From a virus: a DNA stretch of 52,245 bases. Below, piece by piece: positions 3,113 through 5,759 of the stretch. The stretch spans positions 1 through 52,245 of IMG/VR virus record IMGVR_UViG_3300030106_004934; one strand, written 5' to 3'. The notes beneath the pieces were generated by a model. That model did no database searches and was not told the DNA's origin. It saw only the letters and a program-made list of their open reading frames with translations. Made by a program: the position numbers and the translations under genes. The first letter of the stretch is position 1, and every line of letters begins with the position of its first letter.

Positions 3113-3326
3113 CTATCTCTCCCTTTGTTGTTGCACTAATATATTCTAATGATCTTGTACGCTTAGTTTTAGCTTTTTCACTTAGTCTTTTAATGTGATG
3201 ATATTTTCTTACAAGTCTCATGTTAATATTCACATTTTCTTCTTCTAAAAAGTCCATTAATTCATCAATATATTCTACTATATTTAATGTTGTCCTGCTT
3301 TGTAAAATAGTTTCATCTAAATGCAT
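3105..3326 (-). CDS. Hypothetical helical protein (73 aa)
   Basis: It starts within one base of the upstream stop (TAATG-like overlap at 3326), with AAAGGAGAA before it. An acidic N-terminal helix (YIDELMDFLEEENVN) is followed by a basic segment (RKYHHIKRLSEKAKTKRTRS). The charge layout would suit a small nucleic-acid or protein adaptor, which is inference only. No recognised family. Confidence 0.7.
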   Translation of the reverse strand: MHLDETILQSRTTLNIVEYIDELMDFLEEENVNINMRLVRKYHHIKRLSEKAKTKRTRSLEYISATTKGEIDE

Positions 3327-3535
3327 TATTCGTTCTCCTTTGTTAGATCAATTATATCATCTATATCTTCAATATTGTAATCACCACAATTACTGCAACA
3401 AGAAATAAAGAATGTAGGCTTACTGTCTTCATCTTCATCTATTACTATACAAGTATTACCATTGCTTATAGGCTGTGTTCCATCTGAAAACCACCAATCA
3501 TGTTTCAGTTTTTCTTTTAATGTTATAATTTTCAT
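3326..3535 (-). CDS. Small acidic protein with a Cys motif (69 aa)
   Basis: AAGGAGAAT precedes the ATG at 3535. It carries a central FISCCSNCGDY motif (three Cys in six residues) and a very acidic tail (DIDDIIDLTKENE). The Cys cluster could bind one metal with a partner. It is the first protein gene after the 1.1 kb structured RNA region B; region B's last helix ends 33 nt before its start codon. Confidence 0.7.
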   Translation of the reverse strand: MKIITLKEKLKHDWWFSDGTQPISNGNTCIVIDEDEDSKPTFFISCCSNCGDYNIEDIDDIIDLTKENE

Positions 3536-3567: not shown

Positions 3568-4660
3568 TATATCCCACGAAACCTACTGATACCGTCACTG
3601 CTCAGGTGAACTGGAGTATACTCGATTCCTACTATTAAAGGTACAAAAGGGACCTAGTTTCAGCTAGACGTCAGCTTTCGATCAATAATAGATTGGGATA
3701 TAATAATTAAAACTTGGGCTGATGAAGGATTTGAGATTACCTTCAAAATGATATACTCTTATGGGCTTTTGGCCTCACGACACACACAACAATGACTGTC
3801 ATCACTCTACTCATAATAGTTTTGTCTACTATTACATTGCAGGATCCCACTACAGGAATGTTATATTCTATACATCTCAGAGCTACGAGTTAGATTCATA
3901 GTATAGATTAATGCCGACATAAAATCTCTTGGGTATCATCCCATTCTCTTTTATGTTCTCGTTTACATTTACTCATATCTAAGCAGTTACACTCATATTA
4001 CTATCATTTGATAATAACATTAGACATCTCTTAGATACAATACCTGTGTACTTTTATGCAAAACACTTTCACAGGTTTATCATTTAACATATTAACTACA
4101 ATAACCAATCGTCATTGATTATCTCATTAAATATGTACCAAAGCTTTAAATCTTCTGCTATATAAGTGGCTTGGTTAATTCTTACGTCATAATGACTGCC
4201 AATATCTTTATAAGTTATTCACTTACATAGTCTTTTGTTGCGGAAACTGGAGTCGAACCAGATGTCTCTTGGTTATGAGCCAAGCGTTTAAACCGTTTTA
4301 CCCTTCCGCCATTAAATCTTTTGATTGCTATCTAATAATGTAATACTTATCATTTACATAGCTAAAGGTTACAGCTAACAATAACCTATCTATTATAACA
4401 CCCGATGTAGGGTTGCCTTTTCTTCTGCTAATCATCACATGTAAATGACTAGAGAATGGGTGAAGCATAACCGATTCTTCAGTTGCTCATCCATAGTTAG
4501 CTATCACTATAGATATTATTATTAACGCCTTGTAATTTAATACTATGCGCTCTATGGTGGCTTTGAGATGCTATCTCTCAGGTTTTTGCATGTATTCCAC
4601 CTATTTAATAGGAACTTGTTAACCTCACCACCATATACTTTAAATCATATGTTTAGTATA
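3568..4660 (-). ncRNA. Candidate giant structured RNA B (about 1.1 kb) with embedded tRNA
   Basis: There is no plausible gene here, but many perfect helices: TATATCCCA 3568-3576 with 3694-3702; TCTATAC 3867-3873 with 3901-3907; ACATAAAA 3917-3924 with 3949-3956; TATCTAAG 3976-3983 with 4030-4037; ACCTGTG 4042-4048 with 4070-4076; ACATATT 4087-4093 with 4130-4136, crossed by TAACCAA 4102-4108 with 4171-4177; AGGTTA 4366-4371 with 4382-4387; TATGGTGG 4553-4560 with 4628-4635, containing GAGAT 4565-4569/4573-4577 and CCTAT 4600-4604/4608-4612. A tRNA sits at 4239-4309 on the minus strand. Size, phage location and embedded tRNA recall GOLLD RNA (about 0.8 kb, often with a tRNA) and ROOL; assignment needs a covariance search. 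Strand is inferred from the tRNA and flanking genes. Confidence 0.55.
4239..4309 (-). tRNA. tRNA with CAT anticodon (Met, or Ile if lysidine-modified)
   Basis: On the minus strand: acceptor GCGGAAG pairs with TTTCCGC (last pair G-U); D-arm TAAA/TTTA around ACGG; anticodon stem CTTGG/CCAAG with loop CTCATAA; variable loop of five bases; T-arm CTGG/CCAG with canonical TTCGACT. CCA is not encoded (the 3' end reads A then ACA). The anticodon stem lacks the three G-C pairs of initiators, so an elongator Met or a CAT-type Ile tRNA is more likely. The D-arm departs from the usual layout (no T8, short loop). It is embedded in structured region B rather than standing alone. Confidence 0.82.
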
Positions 4661-4806: not shown

Positions 4807-5163
4807 CTATTCGTCGTAAATATCTTCAGTCTTAGTATCCTGAAGCGTCCAACCATTAGATAACAAACTATCCATAGCTTTAGCATCAGCAACTTCAACA
4901 GTTTTCTTACCATTAGAGAGAATATATTTTTCTTCTCTACCAATAAGAACACGGCCTTGTGTACTGCTATCACTAGTAGTAACAGAGTTGAACAAAGTTA
5001 ATGCATTACCTACATCTTCCATAGTATTAGCACTCTTAAGAACTCTGATCATATTACCAGCCATTGCACTACCTAAAGGAGTAGCTATATCTATATTAGT
5101 TTTCCCTTCAGGCAATCTAACAGTTGATGTTCTATCCCATCCAGCTTTTAATCTTACACTCAT
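4807..5163 (-). CDS. Hypothetical protein, first gene of the minus-strand block (118 aa)
   Basis: ACGGAGAAATACTA precedes the ATG at 5163. The N-terminus has alternating hydrophobic residues (MSVRLKAGWDRTSTVRL), a Gly/Ala-rich middle and an acidic C-terminus (QDTKTEDIYDE). I recognise no family. It is the gene nearest the divergent control region on this strand and is followed at once by a strong terminator, so it is probably made early and abundantly as a monocistronic message. Confidence 0.75.
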   Translation of the reverse strand: MSVRLKAGWDRTSTVRLPEGKTNIDIATPLGSAMAGNMIRVLKSANTMEDVGNALTLFNSVTTSDSSTQGRVLIGREEKYILSNGKKTVEVADAKAMDSLLSNGWTLQDTKTEDIYDE

Positions 5164-5573
5164 TAGTATTTCTCCGTAGTTTCTAAAAATAACACAAAAA
5201 ATAAATCAAAAATAACCTAAAAACGATAGTCAAAATCCCCTGATAAGGGGTGGCCAATATATAAAAGACCACACACCAAAATGCTACAATTTTTAAAACC
5301 TCTTGTTTATATTAAATATCTTTTGCTATATTTCAACATCGGTAATTACAGTTTTTTTTAATTATCACCCAGAAAGTACACGTGTGAATCGTTCTGCTTT
5401 AAGGGTCAGAAGTTGGGTTGCTCACCATATAGGATAATGAGTTTGTCCCCAATAACCGATAAAAAGGACTTGAATATAAATCTGAGTATGGGAGAGTATA
5501 ACTGGCTTAGAGGAAGTTTCACTGTTAAATTTTTTAAAACAATCTTGATTGTACAGGGGCTAACTATATCAAA
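5164..5573. promoter_or_regulatory. Divergent control region between the two transcription blocks
   Basis: About 410 bases separate the two divergent units. I see a perfect CCCCT-GATA-AGGGG hairpin (5237-5250), A/T-rich tracts including T8 near 5351-5358, a palindromic ACACGTGT near 5381-5388, and a helix TTCTG/CAGAA near 5394-5413. The late-side half contains a small frame (5437-5577). Replication origin function is possible, because it is the main divergence point, but I see no iterons to prove it. Confidence 0.55.
5309..5336 (-). promoter_or_regulatory. Candidate host sigma70-type promoter, minus strand
   Basis: Minus-strand TTGAAA (5331-5336) and TAATAT (5309-5314) are separated by 16 bases. 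It points at the 118-residue gene about 140 bases away. This is the best housekeeping-like match I found in the control region; nearby A/T-rich sequence offers weaker alternatives. Confidence 0.4.
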
Positions 5574-5577
5574 ATGA
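5437..5577 (+). CDS. Possible small leader protein of the late block (46 aa)
   Basis: An open frame starts at ATG 5437 with a weak AGGAT upstream, and its TGA overlaps the start codon of the next gene (ATGA). The product begins MSLSPITDKKDLNINLSMGE and has a hydrophobic C-terminal third (FKTILIVQGLTI). Coupling to the next gene is the main support; the ribosome binding site is poor and the frame lies in the control region, so it may be chance. Confidence 0.35.
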   Translation: MSLSPITDKKDLNINLSMGEYNWLRGSFTVKFFKTILIVQGLTISK

Positions 5578-5759
5578 AATTAAAAGAGTATAAGCTAATT
5601 ATTATGTTTGATCCAGATACAGGAGAAATTAAACATTTAGAAGAGTCTTGTAGTAGTAATTACAAATTTGCAATCAATGAAGAGATTTTAGAGATATCAG
5701 AAGAAATGGAAGAATATCTTGATAAATATTTAGATTGCGATATTTTAGGTTTTTCTTAA
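5574..5759 (+). CDS. Small acidic protein at the head of the late block (61 aa)
   Basis: Begins MKLKEYKLIIMFDPDTGEIK; a beta-hairpin-like start is followed by a strongly acidic helix (EEILEISEEMEEYLDKYLD). The ribosome binding site is weak (only a distant AGGGG), which fits translational coupling to the small frame upstream. It is followed 43 nt later by the terminase small subunit gene. No family recognised. Confidence 0.65.
   Translation: MKLKEYKLIIMFDPDTGEIKHLEESCSSNYKFAINEEILEISEEMEEYLDKYLDCDILGFS

Follow-up and report, generated by a model that had tools for sequence, protein, structure and literature searches.

A structured RNA of uncultured phages in the genomic slot of GOLLD

Elements of a gene-free gap

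The window analysed here is a virus record of 52,245 bases (IMG/VR record IMGVR_UViG_3300030106_004934, positions 1 to 52,245), which encodes TerS/TerL, portal, major head protein and primase/helicase. A gap of 1271 nt without any ORF showing a coding signal is located between two minus-strand genes, the upstream one at 4807-5163 (118 aa, unknown) and the downstream one at 3326-3535 (69 aa, unknown), which confirms the gene-free stretch seen in a first-pass annotation of the sequence. That annotation interpreted positions 3568-4660 as a single structured RNA of about 1.1 kb with a tRNA embedded in its middle. According to our analysis, the gap is instead an array of separate minus-strand elements, in the order promoter-like element, segment B, tRNA-Met, element D, RNA E and tail.

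The upstream gene ends with a hairpin resembling an intrinsic terminator (4802-4773, 12 pairs, T-rich tail), which is followed by the promoter-like element (4690-4634, minus strand), and hence the gap is probably a minus-strand transcription unit of its own. Over a dozen related phages share the promoter-like element with 84-98% conservation; its conserved core of about 23 nt, TATATATACCAACTTATACYNAACA, occurs once in the window and does not resemble sigma-70 promoters. In some relatives it stands directly 5' of a Shine-Dalgarno (SD) sequence and ATG, before protein genes, and we regard it as the putative start of the RNA transcription unit. From there to the next gene (3326-3535) no terminator-like site was found on the minus strand, which makes a single primary transcript likely.

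Segment B (4525-4315, minus strand) is structured, with z values of -2.2 to -3.7 against shuffled sequences (-3.66 for 4420-4560), and has a counterpart of 80% identity in L010, where it is approximately 380 nt away from the tRNA. The tRNA proposed by the first-pass annotation is real: an ordinary tRNA-Met-type gene with CAU anticodon at 4310-4238 on the minus strand (Rfam RF00005, 40.6 bits), which ARAGORN misses and which has homologues in L004, L010, L026, L029, L039, L043, L044, L087, L088, L092, L096 and L098. It is, however, not embedded in RNA E, it is its neighbour, 88 nt upstream of it in the window, and most relatives of E have no adjoining tRNA. Element D (4236-4155, minus strand; 82 nt) is closed by an 11-bp stem (z -2.21) and is 98% identical in L026, 93% in L040 and, together with part of the tRNA, 88% in L087 and L088. 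It is found 3' of the tRNA in the window, L087 and L088 and 5' of it in L026. The tail, from E to the next gene (3706-3568, minus strand), contains a helix recognisable by eye (TATATCCCA/TGGGATATA); positions 3568-3690 fold no better than chance (z +0.97), and no homologue of the tail was found outside the near-identical relatives L082 and L083. A linker motif at the module borders, AAGATTTA, was dismissed because it is frequent genome-wide. Another noncoding stretch of the window (5184-5583) is situated between divergent gene sets and, at the nucleotide level, is 65-80% identical in the majority of related loci; it could perhaps be a control region or packaging site.

The modular composition became visible when the gap was compared by blast with 80 related phage loci, collected via TerL, and two near relatives. 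The matches come as separate blocks, B in L010, D in L026 and L040, part of E in L047, and the tRNA block in L004, L010, L029, L039 and L044. Since other phages have E, D, the tRNA and B separately or in a different order, we read the gap as an array. The reading of the whole region 3568-4660 as one large RNA would gain from the probable single primary transcript without internal terminator-like site; given the independent occurrence of its parts and the chance-level folding of the tail, we consider it extremely improbable. Among cultured phages, a nucleotide search matched the tRNA alone, and a TerL search pointed to distant relatives only, with identities of at most 26% among the matches listed. 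Bacterial and archaeal genomes gave no match, neither by TerL nor by the E pattern.

RNA E has a conserved fold on the minus strand

The most strongly structured part of the array is RNA E (4150-3707, minus strand), approximately 440 nt long and closed by its own end-to-end helix. Its minus strand folds with a z value of -4.47, which none of 100 shuffled sequences matched, compared to a weak plus-strand signal (z -1.91, equalled by 7 of 100 shuffles), and thus the assignment of a structured RNA to the minus strand was correct. The closing helix P1 (5' strand 4149-4141, 3' strand 3715-3707, minus strand, from the MFE pairing) covaries, with AAAGCTTTGG/CCCAAGTTTT in the window, TATACATTGG/CCAATGTATA in L136 and TTGTGTG/CACACAA in L034. 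Two crossing helices had been proposed in the first-pass annotation. One of them, ACATATT/AATATGT, exists and covaries (ACATAAT/ATTATGT in L136). The other, TAACCAA/TTGGTTA, was not upheld: TTGGTTA has a local partner, TAATCAA, within its own hairpin, and TAACCAA is part of D, which some phages without the TTGGTTA partner carry next to GOLLD.

Relatives of E were collected in several ways. Searching complete records brought up a 335-nt stretch of 70% identity in the record of L035, and a motif scan of IMG/VR found L134-L137. The 3' core of E, with seven helices (3918-3707, minus strand), was modelled in two covariance models, R1 and R2; R1 recovered the remote members L034, L036, L100, L095 and L101, and R2 added L049 and L051. 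A second motif scan gave L163, L164 and L166-L169. Another candidate, L162, found via a 17-mer, was rejected as it fails the model. The family comprises 18 loci (17 distinct sequences) of 390-440 nt in IMG/VR phages, a sample gathered via TerL and E motifs that consists of uncultured phages with mostly incomplete records. In the record of L035 (54,531 bases), E is present at both contig ends (507-716 and 54335-54531), as expected for a terminally redundant assembly. L137 (record of 52,397 bases) carries E although its TerL is only 31% identical to that of the window, apparently a transfer between distant phages.

Compensatory changes among relatives, which the first-pass annotation had named as a check, are abundant. 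In the core alignment A5, which includes all 18 loci (17 distinct), 40 of 51 pairs show double-sided compensatory changes, a value that none of 500 shuffles reached; 96.3% of the cells are paired, compared to 71.6% in the shuffles (again 0 of 500 reach it) and 31-50% when the partners are slid by 1-3 columns. A5 was fitted to the covariance model and leans towards its structure; alignments that had not been fitted, folded freely by RNAalifold, agree with the A5 structure. The covariation in another alignment, A4, also held against shuffle and slide controls. RNAalifold of eight E sequences gave 88 pairs, 39 of them with changes on both sides. Beyond the core, full-length alignments of two subgroups also support P1 and the 5' half, with double-sided changes in 33 of 97 pairs (seven sequences) and 51 of 98 pairs (nine remote members). 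The core includes an invariant G-U pair, which the opposite strand would read as A-C, and a hairpin (3805-3794, minus strand) whose GACA loop (about 3800-3797) is invariant in all members and whose stem shows compensatory G-C/U-A/U-G. At the 3' end, a further hairpin (3745-3723, minus strand; TGAAGG[TAATCTCAAAT]CCTTCA) contains the 9-mer GUAAUCUCA. These comparative data demonstrate a conserved fold of E on the minus strand, with covariation exceeding that of shuffled and slid controls, as would be expected of a new structured RNA family.

Relation of E to GOLLD, ROOL and other RNA families

The first-pass annotation described the region as similar to GOLLD or ROOL, which is correct with regard to the kind of RNA (phage-borne, structured and tRNA-adjacent) and not with regard to the covariance models, as neither GOLLD nor ROOL matched. 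At E<=10, no Rfam family matches E in the window or in five E relatives, and permissive thresholds revealed in the window, besides the tRNA, chance matches only. The GOLLD model (RF02032) found nothing in the window at E<=10 and nothing in the relatives of E; as a positive control, the same model gives 113-176 bits in ten related phages. In the reverse direction, R2 applied with filters off to GOLLD loci reached chance level only (best 14.3 bits, E 0.12), and a homology of E and GOLLD by model was rejected. ROOL (RF03087) is likewise a large structured phage-borne RNA often found near tRNAs; its model matched neither the window (E<=10) nor any of 20 related records (E<=1), a set without a positive control for this model. 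By these searches, E is not recognisable as GOLLD, ROOL or any other Rfam family, and no description of it was found in the titles and abstracts of literature mentioning GOLLD or ornate phage RNAs, a corpus with subscription journals largely outside its scope. Hence, the first-pass suggestion of a possible new class proved well placed: with 18 loci and no Rfam match, E almost certainly represents a new RNA family.

The size and the compact multi-helix fold of E are within the range of group I introns, so one could think of a ribozyme or the remnant of a self-splicing intron. However, no Rfam intron or ribozyme family was matched, and E is inserted between complete genes and splits none, which makes this origin highly improbable.

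A further question is whether E and GOLLD are one RNA by descent, with E having diverged too far to be recognised. GOLLD assembles into a 14-mer cage, as resolved by cryo-EM in 2025, and its function is unknown (PMC12286853). It is a large ornate phage RNA, characterised also by induction at lysis, which adjoins tRNA-Met and uses the same slot in related phages. The variant env-38, from a marine sample, is situated downstream of a Met-tRNA (PMC12286853). E shares the slot, the phage residence and the tRNA-Met neighbourhood, as its record encodes TerS/TerL, portal and head protein and has a tRNA-Met next to it. Furthermore, the 9-nt GUAAUCUCA in the 3' hairpin loop of window-type E is identical to the 3'-terminal loop of GOLLD, L27, which brings together seven regions of the GOLLD structure (PMC12286853). 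Within the E family, this 9-mer is present in the window, L083, L136 and L137, and other members differ; in the remote ones the loop is without its CUCA portion, so that the motif is kept only in part. Because of this partial conservation, the common loop is for us a weak indication of common ancestry or of a contact used by both RNAs, and falls short of proof. The architectures also differ. GOLLD is often longer than 800 nt, with a conserved 3' and a variable 5' domain, whereas E has about half this length; the 3' hairpin of GOLLD is outside its closing helix, whereas that of E is inside P1, and the branching is different. Taken together with the mutual silence of the models, in a phage group where GOLLD itself is readily detected, a common descent of the two RNAs appears quite unlikely.

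E and GOLLD alternate in the same slot

The noncoding gaps of relatives without E were scanned with Rfam, and GOLLD was found in L012, L040, L014, L004 and L026 with 137-176 bits. Altogether, 10 of 49 records contain GOLLD at 113-176 bits, with L007, L020, L076, L087 and L088 as the other five. Half of these ten matches in uncultured phages exceed the Rfam cut-off; the other five score below it despite clear homology. In two of the ten (L087, L088) the order is tRNA-Met, D, GOLLD. The correspondence is particularly close in L088, where tRNA-Met and D are followed after 16 nt by the GOLLD 5' domain, compared to tRNA-Met, D, 7 nt and E in the window. D thus adjoins GOLLD in some phages and E in others, and the comparison of these loci shows that E occupies the GOLLD slot. 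In L039, the start of the GOLLD 5' domain (86% identical to L087) appears at the contig edge, approximately 290 nt after the tRNA start, and is preceded by an unrelated insert of about 200 nt.

The two RNAs were never found together: the GOLLD model found no match in any E record, and E is absent from every GOLLD record examined. Among the 12 records of at least 48 kb, five carry GOLLD, five E, two neither and none both, an outcome with a chance of approximately 0.03 if the two were independent and relatedness is ignored. Many of the records are fragmentary, and a number of relatives seem to lack both RNAs. When E and GOLLD are mapped as labels onto the TerL tree, a minimum of six switches is required, and mixed clades are well supported, for example L047 (E) with L004 (GOLLD; SH-aLRT 98) and L166 (E) with L087/L088 (GOLLD; 99). 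The left arm may differ in its history from TerL, and a separate recombination of TerL would inflate the number, so that the six switches describe the tree and are not a count of events. In L035, L047 and L034, E is located farther from the promoter, behind protein genes, and GOLLD is still absent.

This pattern could also arise if E were a swappable cassette without any function shared with GOLLD, exchanged by recombination at the conserved flanks (tRNA, D, promoter). Homology of the flanks could allow unrelated cassettes to be exchanged, which counts against functional equivalence. The region is indeed mosaic with shuffled modules, E is present in the distant phage with only 31% TerL identity, and some relatives without E and GOLLD carry another conserved noncoding stretch after the tRNA. 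But mere cassettes should sometimes co-occur with GOLLD, which was seen in none of the 12 long records, and GOLLD is missing also where E lies behind protein genes. We therefore regard an exchange without common function as unlikely.

The other noncoding stretch mentioned above was observed in L109 (record of L011), L092, L096 and L098, which have neither E nor GOLLD; it directly follows tRNA-Met (e.g. ACGAGCTGTTTGGGGGATTTAATTCTCACTAACTCGAG...), is 94-97% identical over 110-350 nt and may represent a third class of RNA for this slot. The left arms of L034, L041, L043, L079 and L014 contain additional gaps (1.0-1.3 kb) in which no coding signal is present, and blocks of about 100 nt are common to some left-arm gaps (L029/L034/L041, 90-95%).

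Possible role of E and its significance

E could also be thought of as a cis-regulatory, riboswitch-like leader of the downstream gene. In most of 16 loci, the end of E is indeed found 16-39 nt before an SD sequence and start codon. However, the genes downstream of these 16 copies are of 13 unrelated types, for which reason E is unlikely to be a leader regulating its neighbour. In addition, 126-171 nt separate E from the next gene in the window and in L136, and the size and the closing helix better fit a self-contained RNA, so that we assign very little probability to a cis-regulatory role.

The self-closed fold, the polycistronic place and the tRNA neighbours in some phages rather suggest that E is released by processing of a longer RNA and works in trans. 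Transcription would start at the conserved promoter-like element and yield a polycistronic RNA in which the tRNA is included; E would then be cut out by RNA processing, for which the ends of the adjacent tRNA, where present, could supply RNase P and RNase Z sites. The released E would fold alone and act in trans, doing the same job as GOLLD. We lean towards this view of E as a stand-alone, trans-acting RNA that replaces GOLLD in a group of phages. That E does the job of GOLLD is suggested by the replacement pattern; the evidence for this functional equivalence consists of position, exclusivity and switching, and on this basis a functional substitute is a fairly probable interpretation.

By analogy with GOLLD and in view of its conserved loops (GACA, UCAAAUGA and the GUAAU...AAAU 3' hairpin), E might also oligomerise, most likely as a homo-oligomer contacting itself via these loops, in the way seen by cryo-EM for GOLLD (PMC12286853). 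The formation of an oligomer or cage is a tentative and somewhat doubtful proposal. More speculative still is the idea that E represents a third independent fold for RNA compartments or cages in phages, convergent with GOLLD and ROOL, and that phages exchange E and GOLLD as interchangeable solutions to a single need.

The repeated replacement of GOLLD by an unrelated RNA, with the two never found together, suggests that the slot requires some RNA that is large and folded, and not a particular sequence. The covariance model obtained from E provides a first basis for entering E as a new RNA family. Moreover, E and GOLLD offer a natural comparison, in which features essential for the role of such RNAs (oligomer, cargo, tRNA neighbourhood) may be separated from incidental ones. 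If E is a natural functional substitute, it would make the role of GOLLD testable. If it should turn out to be a convergent cage, RNA-only assemblies would represent a general strategy of phages with several evolutionary origins.
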